A stretch of DNA of 64,000 nucleotides from Scenedesmus sp. ARA3 (Eukaryota > Chlorophyta > Chlorophyceae > Sphaeropleales > Scenedesmaceae), in the NCBI GenBank assembly GCA_004335835.1, contig RWJK01001793.1, positions 1,216 through 65,215 on the forward strand, given 5' to 3'. Position 1 is the first letter of the stretch. Every line of letters begins with the position of its first letter. A program made the position numbers and the translations under genes. Below, piece after piece: positions 1,360-63,963 of this stretch. Below the pieces are notes generated by a model. The model had not been told where the DNA came from. It saw only the letters and a program-made list of their open reading frames with translations, and ran no database searches.

Positions 1360-3639
1360 GAGCCAGCCTGCTGCGCTTGCTGCTGCTGCTGCTGCCGCCG
1401 TAGAAGCTGGCGCCTCCTGCGCTGCCGCTGCTTTGCTGCCCGTGCTGCTGCCTGCAGCTGCGCCGCAGCTGCCCAGCAGGCTGCAGCAGGTGCTGGGTCA
1501 GCAGCAGCAACCCCGCTGGTGCCACTCAAAGTGCTTGGTTTAGGGTCATTTGATGTAGTGCCACAAGAGCAACCTTGCTCACGGCTGATCAGCAGCTGCT
1601 GTCCCACTTTGCTCCAGTCCAAGTATGGCAGCAAACTCCCTTGCTCATGCTGCAGCTGCAGCCTGCCAAGTGGCCGCCGGGCGGCAGCAGCAGCAGCTTC
1701 ACTGTGAATTTTAGCGGCTGCTGCTGCTGCTGCCGGGCAGTCTGGGTAGTCCAGGGGCGGCACTGGTGCCTGGTGAGTGGCTGCAATCCAGCTCCACTCC
1801 CTGAGCCCCGCAGGCTTGGCACCTGCATCAATCGAATGCATGTCATGCCAGCTTAGGGCAAAGCTTGAGTAGCTGCCAGTATGTCAGTGCGTCACATGCT
1901 CAACATGGCAATCAGCATACAGAGTGGATTGCGTCATCTGCACGAATTGCCGTGTCACTTCAGCGTGACAGTACATGCATGCCCGCCGTGCATCCCATTC
2001 CCTGGTTTGGCATGGGTCGGCGTGGGTCTCCACCGCACCGTCCACTTGCAGACAAGAGACAGCACAACACATGCAATACAGACGTGCAACACAAGAGTAC
2101 TGCCTGCCGCACGCTCTTTACTGCCCCGCCCACCTGCATACGTCAGGGCCTGCCAGAAGGGCCCCACCCAGCACCTTAACATAACAGCGCAATGAGAGAG
2201 GATAGTTACATGTGGGTGCTGGCACCATTTCAGATGGTATAATACAGCAGCGCATTGACAATCTGCCGTCCACACAGCTGTCCCTGACCCACCCACCTGC
2301 AAGCGTGAGTGCCTGCCAGAAGGGCCCCACCCAGCCAGCAGGCAGCAGCAGCGACCAGCCAGGGGTGCGGCTGCTCCCCCAGTAGCGCCGCACCAACAGC
2401 AGCGGACACACCAGCGGCAGCTCAACACTACCTGCTGCTGCTGCTGCTGCTGCTGGTGGTGGTGGTGCTGCTGTATCAGCGATGTGTGCGTCATTGTCGC
2501 CTGCAGACCTAGCACCTTGTTTGCGCTGCGGCTGCCGGCGTTGCATGCTGCTGCTGCTGCTGCTGCTACTCAGCTGGCTCGTGATGCCGTATGATGACAG
2601 CTTCACGCCACCGAAGTGACACACTGCTGCTGTAGCACTACGCGCAGCATCACCAGCGGCAGTGGCAGCAGCAGTACCTCTGCTGGCAGCGCTCTGCTGC
2701 TGCTGCTGCCATGGTGGCCCCAGGCCGAGCGCTGCAGCCTGCTGCTGCCGCCGCCAGGCGCCCACAAGCACCTCAAGAGCAGCAGGCGGCACCATGCACG
2801 GCTGGCACAGCAGCGGCAGCCCACCACGCAACCAGCGGCGGCCTGCAAGAGATGCAATCCAACAACAGCAGCAACATGCAGGGGTCAGCAACGACACACA
2901 CAGAGGTTAAAGAAGAATCCTGAACAGCAACAGGGAGCCGCGTTGCTGCCGCAGCAATGCCTGCGTATGATGCAAGTTGGTTCAGCCAGCGGCGGCCTGC
3001 ACAGCAGCAGCAGGCATCAGCGCGTTGGCGATCCACCATGCAGGGACTCGCATGGATGTGCAGCAGTGATGCAGCCTTACGTGTGATGGAGCCAGACGGC
3101 CTGTACGCAGCAGTGACAGCACCTCCTTGAGAGCCTAGCAGCATGCAGCTTCACAGCTCCCGCTTTCCCAACCCCCTGCTTCCCCAACCTCCCGGTTCCC
3201 CAACCTCCCGCTTCCCCCACCCCCAGCCTCACAGCAAAGCAACAGGCACTGCGTCAACCGCTCAGGCTCACAGCGCCCACTCACCGTTGTGCGGCCAGTG
3301 GCCTAGCAGCCGCTGCAGCTCTTTGCCACCCGCAGCAGCAGCGCCAGTACCACTCACACCCCCAGCAGCAGCAGCAGCAGCAGGAGGGTCCTGTGGCAGC
3401 CATCCTTGTGCATCAAACATCCCACTGTGCTTCAGTGGTTTGGCCAGCCTAGGGTCTAGTGCTGCTAAGCCCAGCACACAGCCCTGCGGCAAGCCCTGCC
3501 AGGCAGGCAGCGGTGCAGCAGCAAGGGCAGCGCACACCTCATTGTGTGGTGCAATGCCGCTGCTGCTGCTGCTGCCGCAGGTTTTGCTGGAGTCCACACT
3601 ATGGCCTGCGGCAGAACCAGCAGTAGTTGCCAAGCCTGC

Positions 3640-3727
<88 letters not shown>

Positions 3728-5236: not shown

Positions 5237-5272
<36 letters not shown>

Positions 5273-8723: not shown

Positions 8724-10132
8724 ATGCTGGCAGCACGCACTCGCCCCTTCACGTCCGCAGCACCAACTAGGCGTGCAGTGGTGGCTCATTCATCGCTGAA
8801 GCTGTACACCAACCCAGCGTCTCGCGGCAAGATCGTCGAATGGTCAGTCACTCTTGCTGTCTCTGGAACCTCTCACCCACATTAGCTGTCTGGAAGGGCC
8901 TTGAGGCATCTCTCACGCCGCAAATGGTCGCAAAATAATACTTATGGCAATTTGCACAGCCACAGCTGCGTTTCGGACAGTCTGAGCACTGCACAGGACA
9001 TGCACAGCATAGCACAGCAGCAGCACACACCACAGCAGTAGCACCCTGTAACTACCGCAGTGTTTGTCCTCCTTCCCTAAGCCGTGGCAGCACCAACGCA
9101 GCCCATGCAGGTTTAGAATGCATTAAAGCTGTTATAACAAATTTCAAACCGCAGGTACTTGCAGGAGATTGGTGTGGATGCTGAGCTGGTCAACCTTGAC
9201 CTCAAGGAGCGGCAGCACAAGACAGAGGACTTCATGAAGGTGTGTTAGCAGGGTTTCAGGATAGGCAACAGCAGCAGAAGCAACAGCATTGTCTATAGGA
9301 TTGATTGCCAACAGCACAGGATAAGCAGGAGCAGCAGCACCGGCGCATGCAGCTGTGGATGCTGCAGTGCAGCGAAGTTGTCAGGAGCAGCAACCGCAAG
9401 TGCGGCAGGTAGATCACTAGCAAAACAGCACTACATTTACACACGCTGCAACTGCACTGTCACCTACTCACCTCAGCAGCACAGTCAGCAGCAGAGTCGT
9501 ACAGCAGAGGGGATGTCAATGCCACAACCGCCTAATGCAGCAGCTTGGCATGCTCCCATCCCGTGGCTGCTCCTGTGTTCTCACGCCATGCAGGTGAACC
9601 CCTTTGGCAAGGTGCCAGCCATGCAGGATGGCAGCCTGAGCCTGTTTGAGTCTGGTGCGCTGCTGACCTACCTGGCCGACAAATACGGCAAACTGGACAC
9701 ACCAGAGGCGAGGTGCGCAGCAGCCTGGACAGTGCAATGGCATATGCTTCTACTAAAGTTCTGTATGATCCCTTTTGTGGCGAGCTGGACACACCAGAAG
9801 CAAGGTGTGCAGCAGCCTGGCTGGAACAGCAGCTGAACAGTCTTGTCGTGGACTACTATGGGAATACAGTGCGTCACACCTGCCCAGCACCTCTGTTGCT
9901 GTTTGCTGGTCCTGCACGCTGTAGGCAGGCAAACTGGGAGGGACAGCCGGCAGTTGTGAAACTTGAACACCTTACTGCGGGCAGCTGCAGTGAGACGCAG
10001 TGCTGCAAACAGCGCTGAGTAGCTGCGCTGCTGCCTGCGTCATCTGCTGCTGCAGGGCCAGGGCCTCCCAGTGGGTGCTGTTTGCCAACTCCACGCTGGC
10101 CAACTCCGTGTTTGTGGAGCAGTTCAGGTGAG

Positions 10133-10164
<32 letters not shown>

Positions 10165-10517
10165 CGGTCATGCACAGCGCTGATGTGGCTGGCAGCTTCT
10201 GGCGAGGATCTCACCTTGGTGCACACCATTCTGACAACAAGCAGACCTGCACGCTGCACTGGTCACTATCCGAAGCTTTCACAGACAGACGCAAATGTGC
10301 AGGAATGCGCGTGTGTTGTACTCAAGCAAGCACCCTGTACTCAAGCTCACTGTGCGTTTGTTGTTTTGTGCAGGGAGAAGTCCATGCCTGATGTGATGGG
10401 CAACCTGGACAAGATTCTGGCAGGCAGGGAGTTCATTGAGGGTGACGCCTTCAGCGTGTCTGACGTGGCAGTGGGCGCGTACCTGCTGTACATCCCTGCC
10501 TTCCTGCCACAGGTAAG

Positions 10518-10553: not shown

Positions 10554-11314
10554 CTGGTTCTTTGATGTGTGGCAGCAGTAGCAGCACAGGCATCTGTAGT
10601 GTGTGGCAGCAGCAGCAGCAGCACAGGTATCTGTAGTGTGTGGCAGTACTAGCAGCACATGTATCTGTGTGGTGACGCACTTCAGAGACATGGCCGCAAG
10701 ATCATATGCAGGGTTCTTGTGGCAGTGAGTGCGCACCTGCTGCACAGCTCTCCTTTCCTGCCACAGGTGCGGCAGTGAGGCAGCAGCAGTACATGCGCAC
10801 TAGATGGTGTGCTCGCTGTGGGTTGGTGGGGGGTTTTGTATGGAGATGACACAGAGGGGATGTACGTGCACAGGGCTGATCACAGACCATCAAAGTGAAT
10901 AACAGCGCTGACTGCATCTGCTGCTGTGCCTGCAGATTGACCTGAGCCCTTACCCCAATGTGGTGGCCTACATGCAGCGGTGAGCAGAGGATGCAGTGGC
11001 CTGCATGCACATGGCCATTTCTGCGGTACTGCTGCAAGTATCCTAACGGGGTGCTAGGCTGCAGGGCAATACTTTGCTGGATCCTGGTCTGGCATGCATA
11101 ATGGAGTGCTAGCATGTCGCTACACAGCTATCGACTTGCACGCCATGGCCATCACTCGCAGCTTTGCTGGACTGTCGCCTGCCGTCTGCTGCTGTGCTGT
11201 TGCATGCCTGCTGCCGCCTGCTGCAGGATGGCGGCCCGCCCCGCATGTGCATCCACCGTGGCGGCCAGGGCCACACAGCGCAAGGAGGAGGAGAAGGCAG
11301 CAGCAAAGAATTGA
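8724..11314 (+). CDS. glutathione S-transferase, probably plastid-targeted
   Basis: Conjugates glutathione to electrophiles or acts in redox/peroxide detoxification. Seven exons: 8724-8842, 9155-9239, 9594-9712, 10056-10127, 10374-10512, 10936-10979, 11227-11314. They join in consistent phase to 221 residues, the usual GST length. The first ~24 residues are rich in Ala, Arg, Ser and Thr and look like a chloroplast transit peptide (inference). The thioredoxin-fold N-domain follows: NPASRGK holds the likely catalytic Ser, then NPFGKVPAM with the cis-Pro and LFESGALLTYLADKYG with the glutathione gamma-Glu binding Glu-Ser. The helical C-domain has QWVLFANSTLANSVF and the N-capping-box-like motif FSVSDVAVGAYL. 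The last residues are lysine-rich. The class cannot be fixed by eye. ATG 8724 is preferred over an in-frame ATG 42 nt upstream because it starts the transit-like peptide. Confidence 0.93.
9785..9820 (+). repeat. copy of GST exon 3 end plus donor, in intron 3
   Basis: Matches 9693-9728 at 33 of 36 bases, 92 bp downstream. The block covers the codons for LDTPEA, the exon end and the GT donor with following intron bases. Both copies read LDTPEARCAAAW. Confidence 0.92.
10569..10675 (+). repeat. three-copy minisatellite in GST intron 5
   Basis: About three tandem units of 33-37 bp, each starting GTGTGGCAG and ending near ATCTGTAGT, with a variable CAG run inside. It follows a CAG run placed directly after the exon 5 donor. 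Confidence 0.85.
10719..10768 (+). repeat. copy of GST exon 5 end plus donor, in intron 5
   Basis: Matches 10465-10514 at 42 of 50 bases, 254 bp downstream. It would read VAVSAHLLHSSPFLPQ against VAVGAYLLYIPAFLPQ in the true exon, and it keeps CAG followed by GT. More diverged than the exon 3 copy. Confidence 0.9.
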
Positions 11315-32557: not shown

Positions 32558-32588
<31 letters not shown>

Positions 32589-36092: not shown

Positions 36093-36821
36093 GTGCTGCA
36101 GGTTGTATCTGTTGCTGTGAGCAGCGCTGCTGTTGAAACAAGAGTCTTCACAATGGATGCGCTGTTCCAGAATCAGTGCAGGCCAATACAGTGCGCAGTG
36201 TTTGATTACTTGAGTTATGGTCGGCTGCTTCAACGGCAGCTGCGGTGTATGCACGGAATGGTTGACAAACAAGTAGCAGTGCAGCCCGACGATGACCGTG
36301 CTGCGTTATGCAGCACACGTTAATTTTCCGTGTTGCTGAAAGCCTGAAGTAAAAACTTCGTAATCAGCGTTGGTTGAGGACTGCGAGCTGAAAGCCACGA
36401 CCGAAGGGAACACACAGAGAGGCAGGGACTTTTTGTAGAAAAACGGGCACCAGTTGCCAACACGGGTGATCCCTGAGCATCAAAGGACCATGGCACCCAG
36501 AAACAACCCCAGCTGCATTGTTTGAGCCGATGCGTATGCAGCTCTGAATTTGAACAAAATCCCTAAACCCTCAGCTGGTTACAATGCTGTGCAGCAAGTG
36601 CTTCTGTTGGCGGTTTGCGCTTGACATGCCTCGCAAGGCTTGCAGAGTCAAAAGGTGGAGCTTCGTTACCTTGCCACAAGCCCTACCAGGGCAAACAGCT
36701 GCTGCAACCTTTGTTGTGCATGTGCAAGCATACTGATCACAAACACATCACATCCTTTTTTCACATCACATCTTTACGAAAGCAATGCTCCTGCAACCAA
36801 CATTGCTAGCTGCTGCAGCTG
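36093..36821. other. spacer between LRR3 and LRR4
   Basis: No gene recognised. The first part resembles the 5' flank of LRR2 (both have AGTCTTCA about 40 nt upstream of the start exon), as expected for tandem duplicates. Confidence 0.4.
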
Positions 36822-38966: not shown

Positions 38967-39499
38967 GAGCTGCTGTCGGTGTGCCCTGTGCACAGCTGTT
39001 GATTGTTATGAAGTCAATCTGCACACAAGAGCAGCTGTGCCTAACAATGGGCAGATGTTTTGACAGTTAAAAGACACAATGAGGAGTGCGTGGGTACTTC
39101 AGAGCAGCTTTGGTACACACATACAGTACATGGTTGTTGCTCAAGTGCCGCAGCAGCATAGCAGTTTGAAGCCTCGTGAACGCCAAGCGGCCGCGGTATT
39201 TGGAAGTCAGCCCGTGCACGACGTTTAGAAGCAAAGGCTTGTGCGGGTTGCGAGCTGAGCAAAATGTTGATCGGCCGAAGAACCCTTGCTGACTACACTG
39301 TACTGCTGCAGATGACATCTTGCGGCGCGAACCAGGATGCAGCACAAGCTATGCAAGCTGCTTCAATACTTTAAGCTGAGCTGAACGGTACTGGGCACTG
39401 CTGGCTGTTTGGCAGGGGCGTACAGAAGTGCCACTGATGCACTGGCAGTGAATACCATCTCATAAGTCTGTATGTTCTCCTCTAGCTAGTGTGACAAGC
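38967..39499. other. divergent promoter region, LRR4 and NPPF gene
   Basis: LRR4 (minus) and the NPPF methyltransferase-like gene (plus) start at its two ends. No coding sequence recognised. Confidence 0.4.
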
Positions 39500-41866: not shown

Positions 41867-41898
<32 letters not shown>

Positions 41899-42085
41899 AG
41901 ATGGAGCAGCAGGCAGGGTAGGAGGGCGGCCTGGAGGTGGCCGGCAGCAGCAGCAGCAGCAGCAGCAGCAAGTTGGCAGCAGGAGCGGCCGGCAAGGGAG
42001 TAGACAGCCGGGCGGACGACAACAGCAACAGCCGCAGCAGGTGGGGAGGCAGTCGGGCCGTGTGCCTGAGCAGCAAGCAGGCGCG

Positions 42086-42127
<42 letters not shown>

Positions 42128-42190
42128 AGACGTGCGCCTGTACCAGCCGCGCGCGGTGGTTATGACCTGTTGGATGAAGCAGACTGCTAG
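39500..42190 (+). CDS. putative methyltransferase with NPPF motif
   Basis: Exons 39500-39735, 39989-40096, 40267-40392 and 40637-40785 join in phase; a terminal exon 41789-42190 follows. Conserved blocks: TPFEAYEHLDLLLTRLAK, RIYDPFFCEGRTVAHLKQLG, VYNRNEDFY, then YDVLLTNPPFSGDHIERIF and KPWFLLVPQYIARK. The YDP...CEG segment acts like SAM-binding motif I and NPPF like motif IV of N6-adenine or N5-glutamine methyltransferases, so SAM-dependent methylation is likely; the substrate is unknown. ATG 39500 opens the first exon. The C-terminal exon reads LMAAPKLTPAERRWRKKLAA, long poly-Gln runs, then GGYDLLDEADC and a TAG. One or more middle exons between 40785 and 41789 are missing because of an N gap; the segment before the donor at about 41293 may be one. 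Confidence 0.7.
41076..41242. other. 167-base assembly gap flanked by CTG repeats
   Basis: A run of Ns with GCTGCTGCTGC on its left and GCTGCTGC on its right, in phase as a trinucleotide repeat. The gap therefore probably replaces a longer CTG tract. It interrupts the NPPF gene. Confidence 0.95.
41626..41660 (+). repeat. copy of intron end upstream of last NPPF exon
   Basis: Matches 41739-41773 at 32 of 35 bases, 113 bp apart. The downstream copy ends 15 bp before the acceptor at 41788, so the duplicated piece covers the polypyrimidine/branch region of the intron. Confidence 0.85.
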
Positions 42191-43525
42191 CCTCTTCAGC
42201 CTGGCTGTACACGAGTCCGACTTGGGGTGTTGAAGTGTGTCAGCTGATATCTGTCAGCTGGTGCGGACAGGCTGTCACTCAGTGACCGCATGAGCTCAAC
42301 TGACAGTCTGTCATGCCAAGATGAGGTGACCCAGGGGTAATATCCAAAGGTGATCGTCTGTGGAGGTTACGGGGTGGCTTACCTGATGCACCACTAAACT
42401 TTAGACGCTTGAAGCGACTATTCCAAGTCTAGCTTGTCAGTCACACAGTTGTGATACATGTTGTTGCCTCGTTGAGGACCGTAAGTAGAAGCAGGAATTG
42501 GGACGACCATGAAGGCACACTGGCTCAGTCACCGCAACATACGACACGAAACGTATGCAACAGCCATCAGCAGCAGCGCATGTTCGCATGCACACTGTGG
42601 CAGATCTGTGAATCCACCGATTCATGTCTTCAAACAAGTATAAGAAAACTTATAGTTATTCTGCAGATGAATTTGCCAGGCCGTGAACAGCATAACCCTG
42701 GTGCAAGGAGCCACAGTTTAAACCCCGATGTTGAAGGTTTGAATTCAAAATTGTGCGGCACCGGCAGATGCGCAAACAACAGTAGCTGTGTCGAAGTTAT
42801 CATACTTTTGGATCGCTGTCATTGCACATTACCAGCCGTGACTGCAACAGGTGCAAGTGCTTACACGCCTCAGAAGTGGTGTCTGTGTGGTCGCCTGGGT
42901 TCCTGAGCTGTCGATCTCTACCAAAATCTTCGAGCTTCATTGGAAATACTCCTATCACCGTGCTGGACTCCGCAACACGATCATTGCTCGGCGGTTACCG
43001 GTGGAGCTGCTGCTGCTGCTGTTTGTGCCACAACTCTGTACATTGCTGCGTGTACCACAGCTCCTGCAGCCGAAAGCGTTTTGTTCTTCATCCCTTGATC
43101 TGGTTTGGGCCGCGGCTGGCAGACCACTCCCCAATCTGAAGACTCAACCATCAGCAGCACAACATGCAGAAGCACAAGGAGACGCACACAAGCAGCGTTC
43201 TCGAGGTGTGGCACGTAGCATGTCCAAGACGTGATTGCGTCTCCCCTTGCTAGACTTGTTTGCTGTGGCACAATCAGCAACCAGTCGTAGGATAGCCTCT
43301 CAGCAGCAGCAAGCAGCTAGATGGGCGCTGCAGCACTAGTAGCAGCCACACGGAGAGGCCTGGGTTTCTTCATTACGTCCCACGTCGCATGCCCCACTGT
43401 TCAGCCCTTGCCAATTCACATGCGCTGTACGCAGCATGGTTCTGTTGTTATACCTCTGCCCTATGTGCCTGTGCTGTGCTCTTCTGACGTTCCACTTACA
43501 ATTCTCTGCTCGACAATCACTGCAG
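42191..43525. other. intergenic, no gene seen
   Basis: 1.3 kb between the NPPF gene and the inverted LRR copy. A start exon of the kind seen in LRR1-4 was looked for upstream of 43526 and not found. Confidence 0.45.
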
Positions 43526-45325
43526 GCGTTTGACTTGGTCCTGAGTACCCCAACACAGCGCTTGATGCAGCAACCACGTGCAGCTTGCTGTGCAGCAGCA
43601 AGGCAGTCACGGCAGCTGCGCAGCAGGCAGGGCCTTGCAGCAGCATCTGCATTAAGCGCAAATCTGTGCGCGACAAGCAAGTTGCCTCACGCGCAACAGC
43701 TTTTACCAAGTGGCTCCCGCCACGTGCACACCTGGTGAGGGAGATAGAGCTGGATGTAGAGCAACTTCCACCACCAGACAACGACAGCGACGACGAAGTT
43801 GACGTGCAGGTGCTGCGTGCCCTGGACCAGTTGCATGACACAACCGTTGACGATGACACACGTCGTGCGCTCGACAGCACGCTGGTGTCCAGCCTGCAGA
43901 AGATCGCTGCAGGAGACGGCAGTGGCAGCACGGCCAGCACAGCAACTACAGGCAGCAAGCAGGAGCAGCAGCAACAGCAGCAGCAGCGGCTGCCGTTTAC
44001 ACTGCGCAGCTTCAGCAGCAGCGTGCCACACGGCGCTGAGCTGCTGTCTGCGCTGCCGGCAGCCACCCTGACCAGCCTCAGCTGCCTCTGGGCTCTGCAC
44101 AACAAACCAGACTTTTCTCCATCAGATGCCATCCGAGAGGATGATGCAACAGGCGCCCTGACTCGCCTCACCAACCTGCGCCACCTCAGTGTGGAGGGAC
44201 AAGATCTCTTGGGGGTGCTTATCTGCTGGACTCTGTTGAGGCGCTCACGCAACTGACATGCCTGCACGCCTGCGGGCTGGCATGCAACATGGAGGAGGAC
44301 CTGCAGGCGCTGCCGGACAGCTTGGAGCGCCTGCACCTGGAGCACTTTGTCATCCTAAGAGGTGACTCAGACGACGAAGACGACAACGACAGCAACGCAG
44401 CAGCAGCCGCGGCAGATGAAGGCACCCAGCACCTGGGCATGTGCCACCTCATGCGCCTCACGCAGCTGTCGCTACAGCTGGACGAGTTGCCTGACGACCT
44501 TCGCATCGCCGAGCGGCTGCCTACTCAGCTGCTGGAGCTCACCGCCAGCGCTGTCAGCGATGACAGTGACGGCAGCGCAGGGCCCTGCGCGGTGCTGACG
44601 CTGCTGGGCGGTCTGACAAGGCTGCAGCAGCTGCAGCGCCTCACCCTGCGCAACTGCCGCGAGTCCAAGGCGGGCCTGCTTGCGCTGAACGGCCTGACAA
44701 TACTCACAGAGATCAACCTGCGGTATGACCAGGTGCTGGCGGATGTGCAGACTAGCAGCGCCTGGGCGCAGCTGAAGCAGCTGCGCAGCCTGCACGTACG
44801 CACCGCACGCTTGGAGCAGAACCGTGCGTATGACGGCGGCAGAGGATTCAAGCAAGTGATGGAGGGCATAGAAGCAGCAATCAGCCTGCGCAAGCTGCAC
44901 CTGGACCTCAGAGATGGCAGTCTTGGAAACAGCATGCGGCCCAAGCTCTTTGGATACCTGACTGGCTTGCAGCAGCTGCAGGAGCTGCGCGTCAAAGGTG
45001 TGCATTTTGCCGGCAAAGATGGCGCGCAATTGCAGCAGTGGGCAAGGGGGGTGTACGGCGGAGATTCTGAGCGCGTGAGGCGTGCCATGCAGTCAGATGC
45101 AGCTGACATCCAGCAGCTGACGGCCCTGACAGGCCTGACTCGGCTGGAGGTGACGTCATGGGCAGCTGGGGCCGCAGCAGTGGGTGCATCTTAGTTAAAT
45201 GTGGCGACTGCTTGCAGCTGCTGACGCAGCTGCGTGCGCTGACATGCCTGGAGGTCAGTGACATACATGGTTCGGCACCTACACGCCAGCAGCTGGCAGA
45301 AATTTGGGCGGCTGTGCATGGCTAG
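43526..45325 (+). pseudogene. leucine-rich-repeat gene 5, inverted and decayed
   Basis: A fifth paralog in the opposite orientation. It starts after an acceptor with FDLVLSTP (compare LELVLQHP) and ends IWAAVHG with TAG at 45323. Three lesions are visible: a net one-base loss near 43550, before LDAATTCSLLCSSKAV; a one-base loss in the G run at 44211-44215, between HLSVEGQDLLG and AYLLDSVEALTQLTCL; and a deletion of roughly 45 codons at about 45185-45215 with in-frame stops, removing the repeats between GAAAV and CLQLLTQLRALTCLEV. Between lesions the frame is open and LRR units are well kept, so decay is recent. No start exon was found. Probably non-functional. Confidence 0.82.
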
Positions 45326-48294: not shown

Positions 48295-51200
48295 TCACTT
48301 GGATGCGAAGCTCTGAAAGTTGAAGGCGCCTGCTGGCTGGCCGCCCTGCGCTGCACCATCTGCTGGGGCGCCTGCAAAGTTGAAGCCGCCGGCTTGCTGC
48401 AGTGTGGGAAGCATGGCAAGCAGCAACAGCAAGCAGCAACAGCAAGCAGCAACAGACACAATAGGTCAGAGCCCTGTGCTGAGCACTGCTGCTGTTGAGA
48501 GGCACACATCTCTCCATCACAGTGGTGCCTTCTTGCGTGCAGCTACAGAGTCATGCACAGCACGAGAGGCTAACACATGTCCTGCACAGAAAAGATGCAA
48601 ACATAGGCTTCTGGCAAGCGTGCTGCTGGCCCACCTGTGCCGCTGGCGCCTGCCCGAACGCGTACTGGTTGCCTGCCAGCTGCGGGGCCAGGTTCTGGTC
48701 CTCCAGGCCCTCCTCGCACTCAAAGTAGGTCTCCAGCATGGACACAGCCTTCTCGTACAGGTCCTCGTTGGCGTGCTCCTGCAGGGGTGCAGCACGCAAA
48801 CATAACAAGCGTGCATAAGAACATCAGGCGGCTACCCAGGAGGCAAAGATCGGGTGTATGTACACACAAGGACCATATAACTGAGCTGTGTGCAGCAACA
48901 ATCAATGATTTGCGTTTGTCTGTTTCAATATTTCTGGTCCTTACTCTGTTCCTTAAAAACTTCAGGCAAAACAAATGAGCAGCACGTAAGCGCATCTCCG
49001 CCCGCACCTGCAGCGCCTCGATCTTGTCCAGGCCATCAGCGTCCTCCACCATCTGCGCGAAGGGGTTGTTGCCGCCGCCGCCAGGCATGCGCTTCAGCTG
49101 CTCGCCAACCTGCAGGGTGGGCAACACCACACAGCACAGGCATTCGTGGGTCAGCGCTTGCAGCCACTTCATGGAGGAACACAGGTGTTTCGACAACACG
49201 ACTTGCACGCACCTAAAGCGATGTGATCTGACACCAACATCAGCGCCCCACCCCCGCCCACCTTGGATGTTCTCAAGGCCCTCCAGCGCCACCACAACGT
49301 CTTACACCATCACGAGCTGATTGACCTCTACCCGGCCCCAATCCAGGCCGCCCAATCAACATCTATAAATGTGATTGGCGCACCTTGAGGATGTTCTCCA
49401 GGCCCTCCAGCGCCACGGTCACGATGCGCACGTCGGGCACGCCCAGCAGGTCGCACAGCGGGCGCACCGCGCCCACGTCCACCAGGTAGCGGATCTGCTC
49501 CGCGGTGCCGCCGCTGGTGGCGTTGCTGATGGCCCAGGCCGCCTCCTTCTTGATGTCAAACTCTGCAGACTGCGCCAAGGAAGACAGCAACAGAAGCAGT
49601 CCAGCGGCAGGCAGGGAGGTGCGTCAATGAGTTAGTATACGTGGCAACCATGGTGTTGGCTGCAGCCGCTACTGACGACTCACTTCACAAAATGAACGGC
49701 TGACGCAGCTGCCACCACTGTTGCTGCTTTGCACACCCACAGCAACACTCGCCCTCTGCCCCTGCCAGCCCAATGACTCCTGCGCCATGCACCTCCGCCC
49801 CAACACCCCACCCAAGCTAGTCCAATGCTGCAGCGCAGGCACACAAGCACACCCACGCACCTGCAGCAGGTGCACCAGTGGCGGCAGGATGTTGGCGTCG
49901 ATCACTGCCTGGATCTGCTCCTTGGTGCCCGCGGTGATGTTGGAGATTGTCCAGCACGCCTCCTTCTTGATGGACTTCTTGTGGTTGGCGGTCAGCAGCG
50001 TCAGCAGGCAGCCCAGCGCGCCGCAGTTGATGACCACCTGCGGGGATAGGGAGGTGCGCGGGCAGTGGTGTGTGCAGCAATGTGCAGCAATGTGACAGAA
50101 GAACGTCAGACCCACACATGCAGGGGTGCAGGGGCGGATAGAGCGCCTGACTGAAGGTGCGCCAAAAGAGTAGGAAAGAGCTAGCAGGTGCCGGCAGGGT
50201 GCATAACAAGCTGCGACGCTGTGCGCACCTGCGTCTGCATGTCGTTGCCGGTGACGATGTTGCCCACGGTGCGCAGTGCTGGCACCAGCACTGCGGGGGA
50301 GGAGTGCCTGCAAGCAGCAGCGCGGCAAGAGCATACACGTTGGATGCGCGCACCACAACAGTGATGAGGCCACACTGCGGCACGACAACTGCTGCGGACG
50401 AAGCCTGCAGCTGCCTTGACACTGCTCACATCATGTTCGCCAAACCTTTTTAAAAGGCCCAATGGCAATGCAAGCAGCAGAGCTGCAGCTGTCTTTTCAG
50501 CGCCTCTAACATCATAACCACAGCCACCTGCAAAACTTGAGGGACAGCAACAGCAAACTAACAAATGCCTGCCAGCACTCACAGCAGCAGCTCCACCAGG
50601 CGCCTGCACACGCCCGCCTCGATGACCTTGTCGATGCGGTCGTTGTCGCCGTCGCTGAGGTAGGACAGCGCCCAGCACGCGTCAGTCAGCACCTCCTCGT
50701 CCTCCGCGTGGATGAGCCGCGCCAGCGTGGGCAGCGCGCCGCGCGTCTGTGACCACGAAGGGAATCAGGGTCGCACGGCAGGGCAGGCAGGAGTAGCAGG
50801 CAGAGTGAGGCGTACTGCTTGGGGTAGGGATGAGGCGAGCCAGCGTTGGCAGCGTGATGAATTGCAACATGGGCGTGGTGAGACTGAATATGAGGATGTT
50901 AGTTAAAACACATCACTGCTGTCGCCCAGGCAATGCCCACACCTCCGCCCGCCCAACACACCACCACCCTTTAGCCAAACAGACGCCGCGCGCAACGCAC
51001 CACGGTGAAATTGGGAGGGGGCTTGCCGCGGCAGAAGTTGGACAGCGTCCAGGTCGCGTTGCGCAGCATGGACACCTTGCTGCCCTCGCGCAGCTGCTCC
51101 AGCAGCGGGGGCAGCGCGCCCGCGCCCAGCACCAGGTCGCGGCAGTTGGGCGAGTCGCCGGCAATGTTGCCCAGCGCCCAGACGGCCTGTACACGCAGCA

Positions 51201-53275
51201 GCAGGAGGACAAGCAGGACAAGGAAGGGACTCAAACATGCCCAGCACCCAGATGGCCTGGTAACAGCAGCACAGCGCACAGCACACATGAGAAGCAGGAG
51301 CAAAAGCAAACAAGGTTGCAGCAGTTGAAAAGGTCGCCGACAATCTTGCCCAGTGCCTACAAAACTTGCAGACATGTTGAAAATTTGCAGCACAAAGAAG
51401 AGCAGCAGGGCAACACACGTAGCACAGCTTGGCACGGCAGGGGTTAGGGACAACCGCAAACCAGTCGCTAATATGTGGACCCGTGGCAGCTAGCAGCAGC
51501 GACTGAGGAGGACTCCACGAGCAGGCCTCAACCATGGCGACGGCGCCTGAGGGGTAGCACCGATGCGTGTTGGCAAAGCACAGAACTGCTTCGACATCAC
51601 GCATCAGACCTACCCCACAGGCGCCAGCACCATGGTTGAGGACCTACTCGAGAACTCAGCACTGAAAGAGACGGTTACATGGAAGCGTGGTACAGCTGCA
51701 GAGGCATGCTTGAACAAAATGGACTGCTCTTTTCCATCTGTACAGGACCCGGCGGGCCAGCCATGGAACAACATACGCGACTTGAGCTGATCAGGGCCTT
51801 GCAGGACATGCGTCGCTGGGTTTGTGCAGCACCACACCCCGCTCCTGCGCTAGTAGCCGTGGTTGCTAGTAGCCGTGGTTGCTAATGCATACACATCACT
51901 ACACACTGCTGCACACATGTCGCTGCCCCCACTGCGCCGCATCGCTGGACAATCTGCTGGCCCGCACCTGCTCGCGTACGTCGTCGCTGGGCGACTGCAG
52001 CAGCTGCACAAAGATGGGCACTGCGCCCTCATCGATCACGGCCTTGGTGTGGTCGCTGGTGCCGCTGGCCACGTTGGTCAGCGCCCACGCGGCCTCAAAC
52101 TGCAGCTGCGGCATCTCCGCGCGCTTCAGGAAGTTGACAAACTGAGGGATGACGTTCTGCTTGATCACCTCCTCAATGGGAGGGTTGCGCTCTACATGAC
52201 AGCAGGGAGTGCGGCGCAGCAGGGTAATGGACAGTGCGGGTGGCACTTGAGGTGTGAATCACAGGTCATGGTGATGAAGCTGGATTGCAGAGGAGGGGAA
52301 GGGTTGGTCAACTGTCCTGCAAACGTGTAGGCATTGCTAGCATCGCTGTTGCTGATGGTCTTGTCTTGTTGATGTACTGCTGGATCACTGTATCGCCTAC
52401 AGGCAGAGCAGCTGCAGCTTGGTGCGCATCAGACGTGCTTTGCGGGTGCATCTGATGCTTGCAGGAAAGGCAAAAACAATCAGCGGCTGCCAGTGGCTGC
52501 CAGCTGACAATGCAAAATCACTGTTTTTTTGCACTGTAAGTGCTGCCCGCAGGCCTTGCAGTCCATCAAATCGCTGCCAGCCCAACATACCAATGCGACA
52601 TATTCGATCGTGCCAGGCACAGCTACCATATATAAGGGTGTGCACTTGTTATCAGCAGCTGTGGAGCTGTGCGACAGCAGCTGCTGCTCCTTCAGTGAGC
52701 GATCGCATGCATGCACTGGCTGCTGCGCTGCAATTTCAAATCCAACCGCAGCAGCAACTGCTGCACTGCTTGACGGCTGCTCCTGAGGTCGTTGCAGCCT
52801 GCTACTAGCCAAGGAATCAGCGCGAAGAGGCAAGAGCACGGCTCACCAATGGACAGCAGCTTGCGGAACCACTGCGTGGCCTCATACTGATCCTGGGGGT
52901 TCTGGCTGTACAGGCCCTGCACCTTGGCGGGCAGCTCGTCCAGTTGCTGCGATCAGGGCAACCGCGAAGCAGCAGCCGAGTCAGATAGTGCCTGATCATG
53001 ATGGGGCAGCCTTTCAATGCACAGCATGCGCCTAGAAGCGCCTGGCTGAGCGCCCATGCCCACACCTTGTTCTGCAGCGCAAGTGAAGTGCGCGCAGAGC
53101 TGTCCTCCATAGCATATGAGGGCCCAGCGTTGACCATACGCTTCTTCTGCAGGTTCTCATCGCGCTTGTTCTTGCGCAGCTCGATGATGTTGTCCTCCCT
53201 CTTCCTGCGAGCGTCGTCCGCGTCCACGCCCTTCTTGTATTCCTTTTTGCGGGGAACTCCCGCAGCAGGCTTCAT
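48295..53275 (-). CDS. importin subunit alpha (karyopherin alpha)
   Basis: Nuclear import adaptor that binds classical nuclear localisation signals and hands cargo to importin beta. Eleven exons: 53066-53275, 52847-52946, 51968-52191, 51001-51186, 50583-50746, 50229-50307, 49861-50037, 49384-49569, 49008-49109, 48635-48778, 48295-48396. All phases agree; 557 residues, the normal size. The N-terminal importin-beta-binding domain has [18 protein letters not shown] (about 17-34). Armadillo repeats follow with the NLS-groove Trp/Asn pairs: [74 protein letters not shown] and [12 protein letters not shown]. The C-terminal CAS-binding [13 protein letters not shown] and [12 protein letters not shown] are present. 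The tail carries two FNF motifs ([15 protein letters not shown]), similar to the GGFNFG end of plant importin alphas. ATG 53275 begins [11 protein letters not shown]. Divergent from the gene at 53649. Confidence 0.96.
49259..49292 (-). repeat. copy of importin alpha exon 8 end, in intron 8
   Basis: Matches 49381-49416 apart from a 2-base deletion and one mismatch. The original encodes [11 protein letters not shown] and its donor; the copy, about 122 bp downstream on the minus strand, still reads VALEGLENI. Confidence 0.9.
50828..50856 (-). repeat. copy of importin alpha exon 5 start, in intron 4
   Basis: Matches 50710-50738 at 25 of 29 bases. The original encodes LPTLARLIH at the beginning of exon 5; the copy reads LPTLARLIP and lies upstream of the acceptor. 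Confidence 0.8.
51228..51259 (-). repeat. copy 1 of importin alpha exon 4 start, in intron 3
   Basis: Resembles the start of exon 4 at about 51153-51186. On the minus strand it reads [10 protein letters not shown] against [12 protein letters not shown], preceded by a bases-conserved CAG. It carries a short deletion. Confidence 0.75.
51332..51357 (-). repeat. copy 2 of importin alpha exon 4 start, in intron 3
   Basis: Matches the exon 4 block AGTCGCCGGCAATGTTGCCC and following bases at 22 of 26. Reads ALGKIVGDL on the minus strand. Together with copy 1 it makes a three-member series of decreasing length. Confidence 0.7.
51505..51661. repeat. imperfect inverted repeat in importin alpha intron 3
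   Basis: Core arms 51526-51557 and 51610-51641 are complementary at 28 of 32 bases. Weaker pairing extends outwards on both sides and inwards to a loop of about 18 bases at 51574-51591, giving a foldback of about 150 bp or more. Could be a small foldback mobile element or a hairpin-RNA source. The right arm lies in an open plus-strand frame reading [18 protein letters not shown]. Confidence 0.75.
51851..51882. repeat. two tandem 16-mers in importin alpha intron 3
   Basis: TAGTAGCCGTGGTTGC occurs twice head to tail without mismatch. Confidence 0.9.
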
Positions 53276-56845: not shown

Positions 56846-59800
56846 ATGCAACAGCCGCTACTGTTGATTCTGTTTACTGTGTTAGCGCATCAATGTGCCG
56901 TGGAGGCTTCAGGTAGGTGGTCCGTCGGCTTGTACTGTACCAGCCAAACCAGCATAACGGTTTGTGCGCAGTCAAGTACACTGTGACCGGGAAGTTCAAA
57001 CCAATGCACGAATCTGTGCCTAATCCAGAGCGAACTGTGAATGACAGTCCGACTGAGGATGTGAAAGCGCCTGTTGCCTCGTCAGCAGCATAAACACCAA
57101 TGCATGCCAGCACCAGCACAGCTCATGCAGGTTCACAGCCCGTGATCAGCAACGCAATCTGCTGCTGCTTATGTTTTGCAGTTGACCAATCACCTCGCCA
57201 GAGGCCGGCACCAGGCGGCCAGGCGAATGCAGGAGGCAGGGGCGGCACTGCTAACACTGATGCAGGCAGTGCAGCTCCTGCAAAGCCCAGTGCGGCAGCA
57301 GCAGAGCAGCAGTGGCGCACCTACCTGCACACCAGGGAGGGCCTCGCCAAGGAGGGCCTGATTGATGGCAGCAGCAGCAGACCCTCAGGTAAGGATTTTT
57401 TGGCAACTTCTGCATTGTGCAATGGCAGTCTGTGCTGTTGTCACCAAGCGGTACATATGTACCGCATGACAATTATTTGCATTCATGTCGGCCGCTGCTC
57501 TGGCTCGTACAGGCGACACAGACAGCTGCAGTTTGTTGTTGCTGCCATCTCTATGCCTCTTCTTCAAACCGGTCTCAAGCATGCTGCTTGAACGCTGGCA
57601 GCCAGCGATCGCCGCACACAGCATGAAGCTGTCCAGTGCAGCAGTAGAGCCTAACAAACCAGCAAGCACCACAACAACAAACAATGCGCGACACCATGCT
57701 GCAGGCGCTACTGTGTCCCGCCTGAGGCTTAGCAAGGAGGTGCTGCCTGAGTATGGCCCCAGCTTTGAGCGGCTGACTGTTGAGGCCACTCCAGAGACGC
57801 CCACGAGGCTGCACATCAAGGTGTTCCCCACAGACAGCAAGCGCTGGGAGGTGCCAGAGAGCATTGTGCCTAGGTGAGGAAGCCGGCTGCTTGGATGCAT
57901 GAAGCAGCAGCCAGTGCGAGGGTGATAGCAAGGAGCTGGAGAGCATGAAGCAATTGCTGCGTCTGCTGTGAAGCTTTGTTGCTGTGACTGCCAAACAGGA
58001 TGTGTAGGTCAGCAGCGATTGGCAGCAGGATAGTGCATGCAGCGCAGCAGCACTTGAAAAATGACGCTGCACCACACGCTGCTTTGCGCTACATGAAGCG
58101 CACTGTCACATGTGCTGTGCGGTGGGAGCGGCAGTGTTGCTGCTGGTGCTGCCATCCCCACAACAGAGATGCCAGCGCAACTCGCGCCCACTTGCGCCCC
58201 ATTCTGACGAAATTGGCACCACCTGTGGCTGCAGGCCCCAGCCCCAGCCAGGACTGCTAAGCAGCAGCCTCACCTACGACTTCAGCACGCAGCACGAGCA
58301 GCATGACGGCCAGGGCGCAGACGCATTCGCAATGAAGGTCAACCGCAGATCAAATGGAGCGCCGCTGTTTGACACAACTGGCAGCAGGTGAGCACAAAAA
58401 AACCGTAGCAGCAGGCGCATGTGCTGAACTGCACGCAGCAGCTGTGGCATGCTTGCTGTTCGACACAACGGGCAACGAGTGAGGGTGTGGGGGGAGGGTG
58501 CGTGAGTGTAGCAGCAGCAGAGGTGCAGCTGGATGGGCACAGGCTGATTTGCGCAGTTGCAGCATGCCAGTAGCAGTGTGTCCAGCCCAGCAACATGTAT
58601 AGATTGCACTGGGACATGCTTGCTGCTGGCTCACCTGACAAACTCGCGCACATGGTGAAGTGTCTACGTGCTGCCGACTCCTCAGAGTTGGGTCATGCAT
58701 CTAATATCACGTACCTCGTGCATTAGTGTCAACTCACAAGTATTCGCACCGGACATCGTGCAGGTTTGTGTTCAAGGACCAGTACATTGAGCTGACCACC
58801 AAGCTGCCCAAGACTGCTGACGTCATGGGCCTGGGGCAGATGATCCTGCCGGGCACGAGCGTCATCCTGCCTCGGGACGGCACCCCGATTACGCTCTGGA
58901 ACAGGGACCTGCCGGGTGCCCTCGCAGAGCCCTACGCCAACCTGTACGGTGCGTGCCATGCCTTGTTATGTTATGGCAGCTGTCTCCTGCTGAGTTATCA
59001 ATAGCAGCTCCTGCCAGTCTACTGCAGCTTGCATCAGACATATGCAGCCAGCGACCAACGTTCCAGTGACATTGCACCCTACGCTGTGCATTGCAGCAGG
59101 TCGTAGCACAGATACAAACTGCAGCACTTGCTGTGTTTGCTTTCATACCTTGCGAATGGCTGGCTTTTGCTGCTGCCGCTGCATCATGTCATTGTCCTGC
59201 TGCCAGGCTCCCACCCCTTCTACCTGCAGGCCAACCGTGACGGCTTCTCCCATGGTGTGCTGTTCCTAAGCAGCAACGGCATGGATGTGCTGCTCAATGA
59301 GACCAGCCTCACCTACAAGTGAGCCGGCAGCTTGCATAAATATGCCTGATTGCAGTAGCCAGCAGGTGCACAACCGTGGATGCACATGACCTGTGCAGAG
59401 TGATTTAATGAGACCAGCCTCACCTACAAGTGAGCGGGCAGCTTGGCCACAGGCCACAGAACTGCTGCGTGTTAGTCACTTGTTGTGGCGATGTACCCCA
59501 CATCCCTAGCACTGCTGCAGCATGATGCAGGTGATTATGTTGTTTGCCATCACCATCACTGACAGCAGAGCCCGTAGCATGCACTAACCTGGGGCTGCCT
59601 GCCATATCACACACCAAAACCTTTCATCATTGCTCAACTACAACCTTTGCCGCTGCTGCTGCAGGGTGATTGGTGGCCTTGTTGACCTGTACATTTTCAC
59701 TGGCCCTTCCCCTGAGGAGGTCATCGCGCAGTACCAGCAGGTCATCGGCACCCCTGGCATGCCTCCCTTCTGGGCACTCGGCAACCACCAAGCGCGCTGG

Positions 59801-62468
59801 TGAGGAGCCTCGTAAATAATAGATGTAGCAAACCCCAATTGGCGTTCACAGTTGCACTAGCCCTTATTTCTGAAACCCTGCAGCTGCGCCCCTGAGGCTA
59901 AAGCCACTGCTGCTGCTGCTGCTGCTGCTGCCGCTACCTCCGTAGGGGCTACTCCAACGTCAACGTTGTGGAGCAGGTGGTGAGGAACTTCAGCAGGGCG
60001 GGCGTGCCCCTGGAGGCTGTCTGGCTGGTGAGCTGGCATGATGGTGCTGCTGTGAGCAGGGTGCTGGTGTAGATATATATAGAGTACATGAGTTTACAAC
60101 GCTACATGTAAGCGATGATGTGAACAAGGTTGATTGTGGGAAGCCTGCTTCATGCATTGTTGCTACACCCTGCCAGGGTGCACTCCTGGCCCTCAAACAT
60201 CACAGCTCGCTGCAGCTGCACCTGTGAGACAGCTGTGTCGTGTCCCTGTGTAAGCTTGTGCCAATCAATATATGTTTAAGCATCTTGCAACGATTATGCC
60301 TGCAGGATATTGATCACATGAGCAACCGCTTCCAGACACTCACGCTGGACTCACACCGCTTCCCCCTGACCAAGATGCGGGCACTGGTCGACAAGATGAA
60401 CGCTGCGGGGCAGCAGTGGGTGCCCATCCACGTGAGGAACCAACTTACTGCTTCTGCTGCAGCAGCTGCAGATGATCATGATCATGATGTGTGTGGTGGC
60501 TGCAGAGCAATCTCGCCCGTGCAGCCTGCTCTCAAGTGCGCTCAGCATGTATAGGCTGTACAAACTACCAGCTGTACAGTTGCACAGCTGGTAGTTTGTA
60601 CAGCCTGTACAGCGTCACAGTCACTGGCAGATGATGCAGCAGGACATTGCACAACACAACGTACAAAAGTACGACCGCATTTACATGCGTAAGGCACAGG
60701 GAGGAATTACTGAAGGTGCCTATGCTGCCTTCCTGTCATGCCGCAGGATGCTGGCATTTCCAAGATGCCCGGCTACAAGGCATACGATGAGGGCAATGCT
60801 GCCGGCATCTGGATCAGGGACTACAAGGGGCAGCCCTACGTGGGCCAGGTGCGTTGTAACAATGTAACATGGTAAAGACACATGATACTCGCAGCATCAC
60901 TTGCAAAGCTGTACTGTCAGACCACATAAGGCTGATTTTGGTAGCAACGTGCGCAGCTGGGCAGCAGGTGCAGAGTGTGATTTCTGCTGTGTCGACATCT
61001 GCTCCTGTCTGCGTGCTGTGCGCTGCAGGTGTGGCCAGGGGAGGTGGTGTGGCCCGATGTTGTGGGCAACGACAACACCAACAGCTGGCTGACACACCAA
61101 TTTACTGCTGCTGCTGCTGTGCAGGTGTGGCCAGGGGAGGTGGTGTGGCCCGACTATGTGGGCAATGCCAACACCAGCGCCTGGCTGACTGAGCAGGTGG
61201 CCAACTTCTACAAGCAAGCTCCCTTTGGCGGCCTCTGGTGCGTTGCAGCTAGATCCTTTGCCTTGGCCAGCCGAGGCAGGTCAAGTGGCAGCAGTTGTGC
61301 CTTGCAGCTGCCGAAATGCATGTGGATGGAGTGGTTGATTGCGTGGTGAATGGCACTGCTTGTCATTTAAGAGGGCTGGGTGCACTGCTGTTAGAGATGC
61401 GAAGCAGAGGGTGCAAATGGATGGGCCGCAGCAGACGGCGTGCACTAGCCGTGATAAACTCGCGACAGATGCTAATGCAGCAGCTGAAGTTGCAGCTGCC
61501 TACTCCTGTTGCCGCTGCCGTAGGAGCAGCACCGCAACTCAGAGAAGAGTATGTTGCTGCTGTTGCTGCTGCTTTGTGTGCAGGATGGACATGTCTGAGC
61601 CGATCAACTTCTGCACAGGCATCAGCTGCCAGGCTGACCCCACCAACAAGCAGGCCATGTTCTGTGAGTTGCACCATGTGTCAGGTGTTGCAGAACTTGG
61701 CTAAAGCACAATGCACCATAATGCTCACTTTATTTTACTGAGGGTGTGGCCGAGCTGTAAGAGGCGAGGGCTGTTAGTTAGGAGGCAATTGACAGTTGAG
61801 CATGTTGCTTTCGTGTCTAGATGGGCCTCCCGGCGCCACACTGAACAACACAGTGCAATGTTGGGTTGCATGCAGCAACTTCACTGGGCGAGTGCTGCAA
61901 TAACATTGCATGCATGTATCAGCTTGCCAAGACAATGCCGCTGCCACCCAGCACTGTGAAACTTGTGTGACACTGATGTGTGTTGTGCTGTGTGCTTTGC
62001 AGGGCTCACTGCTGACACACCCAAGGACTTCAACGTCACAAGTGAGTGAGAAAATGATCTACAGTATAAAAGTCGTGAAGCTAACCTGACGCACAAGTGG
62101 CGTGGCTGCTGCTTATGTGTTCTGAGGAAGAGGTCAACAAGCTGCTTCCAAGCCAGTCCGGACTGCTGATTTGGGTAGCCACACAACACAACTTGCAGAG
62201 TAGTGGGGCTTCTGCGTGTTAGATGCATGCTGATCACCACGAATGCTACCAGTGGTGTGCTGATTATCACATTTTGTGCGTCACACGACGGGAACACAGC
62301 CTGTTTTGAGCCAATGACTGGCACATTGGGCACCACATCAACAGCCACACCTGCTGCCGGACAAGCTCAACAAGAGTAAACCTTGACATGACTTGCGCGT
62401 GCAACGCATGTGGTGCAGCAGCACCTTGTTGTTTGTTTCAACAAAGCTGCTTGTATCAAACATGACCT

Positions 62469-62508
<40 letters not shown>

Positions 62509-63963
62509 CTTCATCCGGCCGCGCACCACCTGCCAGCTCAAGTGCGAGCAGGCAGCAGCAACCAACAAGCTGGCCAACCCACCTTATGCCATCCACAACT
62601 ATGACATGACCACCAAGACGCGCCAGCTGAGGCTTGAGCAGGAACTTGTGTCTGTGACTGCAAGTGAGTTGTTTACATATGCGCATGGTGGTTGGTTGGC
62701 AGACATAGTGTACGGACTCCAGCGGAGCTGATTGACACAATGTCGGTGTCGCTGCTTGCGCATGATAATGCGATAAATACGGGCCTCTTGAACGCACCTT
62801 ATGCCATCCGTAACTATGACATGACCACCAAGACGCGCCGGCACAGCATTGAGAGGGACCTAGTGTCCGTTACTGCAAGTGAGGAGGGAACTTTCTGCAG
62901 ATGTTGTCACAGCACCTGCAGGAGGCACATTGGACAGATACTGTACACTTGCATGATGTCACTGCTGGCTTCTATGAGATCCTGAAGTGGCGGTGTCAGC
63001 CCAACTACAAATTGCCAACATGATCGGCCCCTTCAGCACATGGCAGTGTGAGGACAGTCTCACCAGCTGTGTTTTGCAGAAGCCTGAAGCACTGTGCTCT
63101 CTGCGCAAACCTGCAGGACACTCTGATGGCACGCTGCGCTACAATGCGCACAACCTGCACGGCGCGGCAATGGCGCAGCAGCACTACAGGGCCTTTGTGG
63201 CAGCCACCGGCAAGCGTCCCTTCAATGTTATCAGGTGGGCAGGCGCAGCAGCAGCTGCCGCTGCAGTTGTTAAGCGGGCAACCACAGCAAATCACATGCA
63301 AGCAGGCTAGGGATACCTCCTACTGGGTTAGTTGTTGGTGTATATGTCAATGCATGCAGCTTCACCCCCGCACCACGTTGACATAAAGGCACTTTTGACA
63401 AGAATTGAACGAACATCATCTTAGCAACAATGTGAAATTATGTTTCTTTTGACTTAGTGACGCATCGTGTGTGCTGTGTGTGGCTGCAGGTCCACTTTCC
63501 CTGGCTCTGGCCGTTGGGCAGGCCACTGGACAGGTGCGCTGACTCAGCGCTGCTGATGAAAAGAATAAAAACATAATGAGAAAATGCTGGCAGAGCGGCT
63601 GGGGCCCCAGAGCACTGCGCACACTGCTAAAATAGCATCATGTGTTTGCCTTCCAGTAATGCCACAGAATCGTAGTCCGCACTATGCTCAAGGCTGCTGC
63701 TTTGCCAGCTCGAATTGTGTAATCAGGCCCTCTGATCAGCAGCATGCTGTCGTGCCTGCTGCCACCAACCGGTTGCTCTCACACCCCACACCTTTATTTG
63801 TTACGACATCGGTTTCTTTTGTGTGTGGGACGACCGTCAAAATGCTTGACCATGCGTTTGTTGCGTGTGTTGTCCTGCTGCAGGCGACAACCGCGCCAGC
63901 TGGCGCTCCCTGGCTGAGAGTGTTGCGCAGACGCTGACACCCAGCATGTGGGGCATCTCCATG
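56846..63963 (+). CDS. GH31 alpha-glucosidase, 3' truncated by window
   Basis: Hydrolyses terminal alpha-glucosidic bonds of maltose, starch fragments or related glucans. Exons in consistent phase: 56846-56912, 57182-57388, 57705-57873, 58235-58387, 58764-58948, 59207-59318, 59665-59799, 59946-60027, 60306-60431, 60747-60848, 61125-61237, 61584-61663, 62003-62041, 62508-62663, 63117-63234, 63490-63533, 63884-63963; 656 residues to the edge. Exon 1 is a signal peptide (MQQPLLLILFTVLAHQCAVE), so a secreted, vacuolar or lysosome-like location is likely. GH31 marks: GNHQARWGYSN, WLDIDHM with the substrate-binding Asp near 371-373, the nucleophile region LWMDMSEPINF (Asp486; Ser replaces the common Asn of DMNE), NPPYAIHNY, YNAHNLHG, and the acid/base block STFPGSGRWAGHWTGDN (Asp631). 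The C-terminal barrel end and beta domains lie outside the window. Confidence 0.95.
57448..57465. repeat. perfect 18-bp palindrome in GH31 intron 2
   Basis: GCGGTACATATGTACCGC equals its own reverse complement. Could be a dimeric regulator site or chance; no second copy was noticed. Confidence 0.7.
58455..58483 (+). repeat. copy of GH31 exon 4 end plus donor, in intron 4
   Basis: Matches 58364-58392 at 24 of 29 bases, 91 bp downstream. Original LFDTTGSR with GTGAG donor; copy LFDTTGNE followed by GTGAG. Confidence 0.75.
59407..59445 (+). repeat. copy of GH31 exon 6 end plus donor, in intron 6
   Basis: Matches 59296-59334 at 38 of 39 bases, 111 bp downstream. It includes NETSLTYK codons, the GTGAG donor and 13 following intron bases. 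The youngest copy in the window by identity. Confidence 0.95.
60553..60606. repeat. perfect 23-bp hairpin in GH31 intron 9
   Basis: Arms 60553-60575 and 60584-60606 are exactly complementary, with an 8-base loop ACAGTTGC. In the transcript this would form a strong stem-loop inside the intron. Confidence 0.95.
61029..61093 (+). repeat. upstream duplicate of GH31 exon 11, in frame
   Basis: Matches 61125-61189 at 57 of 65 bases. It has its own CAG acceptor, and the frame is open from this copy through the spacer into the true exon. Reads VWPGEVVWPDVVGNDNTNSW against VWPGEVVWPDYVGNANTSAW. Use of this acceptor would add 32 residues. Confidence 0.95.
62791..62883 (+). repeat. copy of GH31 exon 14 end plus donor, in intron 14
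   Basis: Matches 62576-62668 at about 79 of 93 bases, 215 bp downstream. It reads APYAIRNYDMTTKTRRHSIE and keeps the GCAAGTGAG donor. No AG acceptor sits directly before it, so it is unlikely to be a usable exon. Confidence 0.92.

Follow-up and report, generated by a model that had tools for sequence, protein, structure and literature searches.

Direct copies of exon edges in the introns of a green alga, probably left by short tandem duplications across splice junctions

Related duplications in other genomes

Short tandem duplication is a mutation class known from several genomes. According to excerpts of the studies concerned, the most frequent type of insertion in rice is the tandem duplication, which is enriched at 50–200 bp with a share that falls past 125 bp (PMC7971508), and in cells of mouse and human, staggered breaks give rise to small tandem duplications (PMC8355091). 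We analysed a stretch of 64,000 nucleotides from a scenedesmacean green alga (the window; contig C1384) in which short, diverged copies of exon edges lie in the adjoining introns, together with 200 kb of contig C1552 and 50 kb of contig C845. The three contigs, which were picked for convenience, provide a sample of 314 kb from an 87-Mb genome (87.3 Mb in 1567 contigs). Like the patch-repair duplications of rice, mouse and human, as excerpted, the algal copies are in direct orientation and occur at many loci (PMC7971508; PMC8355091), and their scale resembles the ~50–200 bp of rice, where there is a drop above ~125 bp (PMC7971508). They differ from patch-repair duplications in three respects: a large number of the events retained in the alga sit where exon meets intron, and have existed long enough to show as a layer within introns; many matches are shorter than the offset between the copies; and offsets above 140 bp are common.

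Three other systems involve introns directly, and are likewise described here from excerpts. In the potato RdRp gene, a tandem duplication also crosses an existing intron-exon boundary; however, that is a single case in which a new intron was made, whereas in the alga it is the existing intron that becomes longer, and new introns were not detected (PMC4974935). Tandem duplication of splice-site-bearing sequence is likewise a feature of AGGT intron gain, as in the Drosophila cases (PMC2891723); the alga differs in that the signature of this process is missing from its 334 predicted introns at a score of at least 14. Introners resemble the algal copies in adding intron sequence at many algal loci (PMC9860276), but no mobile family was seen in the alga, where each copy derives from the adjoining exon. 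The algal copies most likely belong to a known class of mutation, and what is new is how densely it marks the splice junctions of one alga. We found no description of a dense layer of splice-junction duplications in the titles and abstract openings of open-licence papers.

The AGGT signature was sought by comparing donor with acceptor context at intron-length offset. At a score of at least 14 it was present in 0/334 predicted introns and 1/3340 controls, and at a score of at least 12 in 2/334 and 5/3340, respectively; very short introns could escape the gene finder on which this test relies. An earlier note on the window had suggested that the duplications might seed new introns, and the test gives that suggestion no support.

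Copies of exon edges beside splice junctions

Comparison of the window with itself revealed 12 intronic copies of exon edges at 11 junctions, with lengths of 19–93 bp, identities of 77–97% and start-to-start offsets of 70–254 bp (Table 1). The earlier note, which was made from the letters of the window alone, had described at least eleven such copies, in agreement with this count. Its ranges (83–97% identity, 26–93 bp, 42–254 bp apart) need widening for one copy that is less alike (37/48) and two that are shorter (19 and 22 bp), and its spacings were perhaps given as gaps. Among the genes that it named, we recovered POP1-like, GST, importin alpha and GH31; its "NPPF gene" was not identified. 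GH31 is named from a strong Pfam match (PF01055), and POP1-like from a POPLD match that lies under the Pfam cut-off.

Local direct pairs were more numerous at offsets of 30–330 bp than at 1000–1300 bp in the window (13 versus 1), in C1552 (193 versus 15) and in C845 (10 versus 1). Window counts at 3 and 6 kb (13 and 15) were set aside, since the many repeats at these offsets probably reflect a tandem leucine-rich-repeat gene family at 27464–45194. That interval holds several long open reading frames that resemble such a family, with an LRR_14 match in the one frame scanned.

Exon-intron junctions were predicted with a home-made gene finder that was trained on the window and combined fixed splice-site matrices with retrained coding statistics. 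The finder recovered exons of GH31 and those of a chaperonin gene in C1552, putatively chloroplast cpn60 as judged by eye. Its faults were the fusion of neighbouring genes, the loss of some exons and the calling of one cpn60 intronic copy as an exon. The importin alpha model agrees with a database protein, T. obliquus A0A383WFD2 (578 residues): all 524 residues of the spliced product align to this protein at 100% identity, which supports the exon boundaries of the gene. For GST, a search against T. obliquus GST P0001 gave 90%, and by eye the exons are the same once a mis-included intronic stretch is dropped. P0001 joins LDTPEAR straight to ARASQW, and AFLPQ to IDLSPY; the first of these joins indicates that the GST copy at 9785 is intronic. 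The same protein rules out the reading of the 9693/9785 pair as a newborn 92-bp intron, and shows that a 17-residue stretch of the conceptual GST protein is intronic. From importin alpha, GST and a GC content of 57%, the value also tabulated for T. obliquus UTEX 393 (excerpt of PMC5966456), we take the source alga to be T. obliquus or a very close strain.

We compared each predicted junction (60 bp of exon plus 20 bp of intron) with up to 350 bp on its intron side, at a score of at least 18. Across the 314 kb, a direct copy of the edge was found at 58/376 junctions, as against 2/376 for inverted copies and 1/376 for a random unrelated intron. A self-alignment of this kind had been proposed in the earlier note, and its outcome bears out the claim of a recurrent phenomenon of mixed age in unrelated genes: copies were seen on all three contigs, are almost always direct and have lengthened the introns that hold them. 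The 58 junctions, most of which are on C1552, belong to 17 loci, including a repeated-exon gene with 9 junctions (C1552:64–67 kb). At 19 of these junctions, at least 20% of the copy lies in a predicted exon, which leaves 39 pairs.

The copies decay in a near-neutral manner. In the 39 pairs that remain when copies in predicted exons are set aside, differences at codon positions 1, 2 and 3 number 54, 51 and 124, the synonymous fraction is 0.49 without heterogeneity (p=0.44), and there are five in-frame stops. All 58 pairs give 65, 68 and 181, and a further count on 49 pairs of the cluster scan gives 47, 53 and 111. These values are close to those of copies that drift freely beside exons that change slowly, with a slight excess at third positions. 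Copied splice sites are not preserved. The core splice dinucleotide is kept at its exact place in 15/25 donor and 25/33 acceptor copies (40/58), and within 3 bases in 19/25 and 26/33 (45/58), whereas the expected retention is ~87% (deficit p=0.0003 exact, p=0.03 within 3 bases). Copied sites may therefore be lost faster than average, with the deficit due in part to matches that end short of the splice site. In the window, the importin alpha matches at 50710 and 51131 end within the exon, before the splice site is reached.

Paralogues of two genes carry different copies. The GH31 paralogue (C1032) lacks a copy of the 59318 exon edge (best score 9 versus 36 in the window), and has its own copy of the end of the next exon (score 45 versus 6 in the window). 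Similarly, a 2.5-kb stretch of the cpn60 paralogue (C1260) holds no pair like that at C1552:105852 at a score of at least 20, and contains an acceptor-spanning tandem unit of its own, of ~105 bp (L038 2041–2178), in which the exon half is identical and the intron half is more diverged. At any single site, the copy may have been lost from one paralogue rather than gained by the other.

Origin and placement of the copies

We consider it likely that the copies arose by ordinary short tandem duplication, probably during break repair, and were tolerated where the duplication spanned a junction. Nearby nicks on opposite strands would give rise to breaks that are filled in and rejoined, leaving a short tandem duplication. 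An event internal to an exon would insert ~100 bp into the protein and be lost, while a junction-spanning event would be tolerated if splicing continued to use the outermost donor or acceptor and removed the extra copy together with the intron. Each such event would lengthen the intron by one unit, and the exon-derived half would be recognisable longest, since just one of its two copies would drift freely. Repair of breaks is the probable source of the copies, outermost sites would be used in genes beyond those checked against proteins, and the process may be active still. The direct orientation of the copies (58/376 against 2/376 inverted) supports tandem duplication, as do their near-neutral decay, the differing copies of the paralogues and the share of junction-spanning events in a simulation of random duplication (below). 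A tandem origin is also supported by matches that fill the offset, by residual homology and by the tandem unit of the cpn60 paralogue: after gapped extension, the match spans at least 0.85 of the offset in 17/58 cases, and of the other 41 matches, 12 have a spacer that retains some homology to the flank. Similarity that breaks off abruptly near splice sites had appeared incompatible with tandem duplication, an objection much of which was removed by gapped extension and the simulation. Offsets of the 68 clusters lie mostly at ~85–280 bp and are densest at 85–140 bp (10 clusters at 40–84 bp, 42 at 85–210, 12 at 211–280 and 4 at 281–420).

Placement was assessed in 117 introns with confident flanks, 112 of which were usable per edge. 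At a score of at least 16, copies were found for 11/112 donor edges, 19/112 acceptor edges, 7/152 mid-exon windows and 7/122 intron-internal windows; inverted copies were found for 0/122 intron windows and 2/112 donor edges. At a score of at least 20, the corresponding counts were 5/112, 12/112, 7/152 and 5/122, with inverted copies for 0/122 intron windows and 1/112 donor edges. Edges therefore exceeded intron-internal windows at the lower threshold (30/224 versus 7/122, p=0.03) but not significantly at the higher (17/224 versus 5/122, p=0.25). In a simulation that placed tandem duplications at random on the actual gene structures, discarded those internal to exons and applied neutral decay, 54–61% of detectable events spanned a junction. 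Most of the edge excess is accounted for by tandem duplication at random positions, by the loss of events inside exons and by the slower decay of the exon half. These results weaken the case for a special junction-spanning process, as proposed in the earlier note, and a preference for junctions is unproven.

We also sorted the 68 clusters by hand into 45 small ones (at most 3 pairs, offsets 85–280 bp), 11 larger arrays and 12 small ones at other offsets; the sorting was not blind, and some clusters called intron-only may be intergenic. Of the 45, 29 are junction-type and 2 more are so by eye (C1552:158554 and 173445). Whole-exon or repeated-exon clusters number 4 (C1552:8809, 64658, 65900 and 66967), exon-only clusters 2 (window 14945; C1552:156494), intron-only clusters 6 (window 41618; C1552:51924, 132202, 142428 and 143890; C845:18680) and uncertain ones 2 (C1552:74269; C845:39920). 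The 11 arrays comprise 6 junction, 4 intron and 1 exon; the 12 small clusters at offsets outside 85–280 bp, beyond the simulated range, comprise 8 non-exonic and 4 exon-only.

Several observations weigh against plain tandem duplication, and the main one is the shortness of recent matches relative to the model. Among small-cluster pairs of any class with at least 93% identity, the match covers less than 0.6 of the offset in 15/19, as against 0.32–0.55 of simulated junction events (p=0.00004–0.03). No tandem remainder was detected for 29/58 copies, which include near-identical ones (window 59318; C845:26430), and offsets of 141–280 bp (27/68 clusters) are commoner than the rice curve suggests. 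Junction-type clusters make up 29/35 of small clusters at offsets of 85–280 bp, or 35/45 with arrays, both above the simulated share (p=0.0003–0.005 and p=0.0008–0.013, respectively); when the 8 non-exonic clusters are counted as intron-only, the figures become 29/43 and 35/53 and the excess fades (p=0.05–0.27). The third-position share of 54–58% is slightly over a rough expectation for fully free copies, and some copies may be under weak constraint. Finally, gene models are ab initio except in genes checked against proteins.

Some of these features would be expected if an exon edge and a few intron bases were pasted into the adjoining intron, for example when template switching occurs at splice-site microhomology or when nascent RNA serves as the template for repair. 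Near-identical, short, spaced matches that end a few bases beyond the splice site fit such junction-linked copying, as at C845:26407 (27 bp, 100%) and C1552:158554 (52 bp, 100%, junction by eye), as does the excess of junction-type clusters at offsets of 85–280 bp. By contrast, template switching is indifferent to orientation and should yield inverted copies, which occur at only 2/376 junctions; tandem structure is present in 29/58 copies; the edge excess is about twofold in confident introns and not significant at a score of at least 20; and the cluster excess fades once other offsets are counted. On balance, we regard junction-linked copying as an unlikely source. The more specific proposition that copying is directed to splice junctions, with short splice-site-bearing exon edges pasted into the adjoining intron above the rate for the rest of the intron, appears rather improbable; if true, it would give splicing or its RNA a role in sourcing new intron DNA.

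The copies might instead be kept for use, as alternative or mutually exclusive exons or as decoy splice sites. Some differ from the exon at synonymous sites only (cpn60 105852), in the GH31 paralogue 7/7 exonic differences are synonymous in an alignment read by eye, and the window copy at 61024 would add an in-frame 32-codon repeat. However, the pooled codon-position and synonymous fractions are near those of free drift without heterogeneity, and splice dinucleotides are kept in fewer copies (40/58 exact, 45/58 within 3 bases) than the ~87% expected, making retention for use very improbable. An artefact of assembly, such as an unmerged haplotype or scaffold ends, is extremely unlikely given copy identities that run from ~77% to 100% with near-neutral drift, different copies in paralogues, and no long second copy of the GH31, cpn60 or importin regions among the matches listed. 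Introners have been found chiefly in rapidly evolving lineages, green algae among them (excerpt of PMC9860276), yet mobile introner-like elements bearing splice sites are scarcely credible here, as what has been copied is the edge of an exon of the host gene itself and unrelated introns match at 1/376 junctions.

If tandem duplication is the source, junction-spanning events would constitute a concrete and datable route of intron growth, in which the exon fragment marks the age of each event. They would also keep supplying spare splice sites, the raw material for alternative splicing. The mean intron of T. obliquus UTEX 393 is 462 bp, as compared with means of 230–302 bp for the other four green algae of the same table (excerpt of PMC5966456), and the duplications may be linked to this length.

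Coordinates and minor features of the window

Table 1. Exon edges in the window and their intronic copies. Identity or length is given with the original or with the copy, offsets are start to start in bp, and a slash within sequence marks the junction.
Feature	Position	Strand	Details
POP1-like original, exon end and donor	2284..2335	-	52 bp, 88%; predicted intron 1823-2296
POP1-like intronic copy of 2284-2335	2121..2172	-	offset 163
POP1-like weak pair, 19 bp	2829..2847 with 2983-3001	-	TGCAG/GCCGCCGCTGG, 18/19; used exon start could be either member
GST original, exon end and donor (...LDTPEAR)	9693..9728	+	36 bp, 92%; P0001
GST intronic copy of 9693-9728	9785..9820	+	offset 92
GST original, exon end and donor (...AFLPQ/GT)	10465..10514	+	84%; P0001
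GST intronic copy of 10465-10514	10719..10768	+	offset 254
Importin alpha original, exon end at donor	49389..49416	-	27/28; A0A383WFD2
Importin alpha intronic copy of 49389-49416	49265..49292	-	offset 124
Importin alpha original, exon start	50710..50736	-	24/27
Importin alpha intronic copy of 50710-50736	50828..50854	-	offset 118
Importin alpha original of two copies, exon start with acceptor CAG	51131..51189	-	
Importin alpha intronic copy of 51131-51178	51310..51357	-	37/48; offset 179
Importin alpha second intronic copy, of 51168-51189	51238..51259	-	20/22; offset 70; CAG included
GH31 original, exon end and donor	58364..58392	+	24/29
GH31 intronic copy of 58364-58392	58455..58483	+	offset 91
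GH31 original, exon end and donor	59296..59334	+	97%
GH31 intronic copy of 59296-59334	59407..59445	+	offset 111; not found in C1032 paralogue
GH31 original, acceptor and exon start	61120..61189	+	70 bp, 89%
GH31 intronic copy of 61120-61189	61024..61093	+	offset 96
GH31 original, exon end and donor	62576..62668	+	93 bp, 85%
GH31 intronic copy of 62576-62668	62791..62883	+	offset 215

The GH31 copy at 61024 places an acceptor, near 61029, 96 bp upstream in an open frame, and its use would add the 32-codon near-repeat VWPGEVVWPD... to the enzyme. Two other features lie in GH31 introns: a near-perfect palindrome at 60548–60611 (minus-strand self-match, 91%), and a small dispersed repeat at 62259–62348, of which ~60–90 bp match at least 34 other places in the genome at 82–90% among the matches listed. 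An importin alpha intron contains an imperfect palindrome of ~133 bp (51518–51650, 78%). A local direct duplication of 47 bp (41618–41664 and 41731–41777, 41/47) lies at no predicted junction. At the start of the window, positions 26–170 form a 145-bp repeat, of which 39 further copies, at 90–94%, were among the 40 candidates scored.

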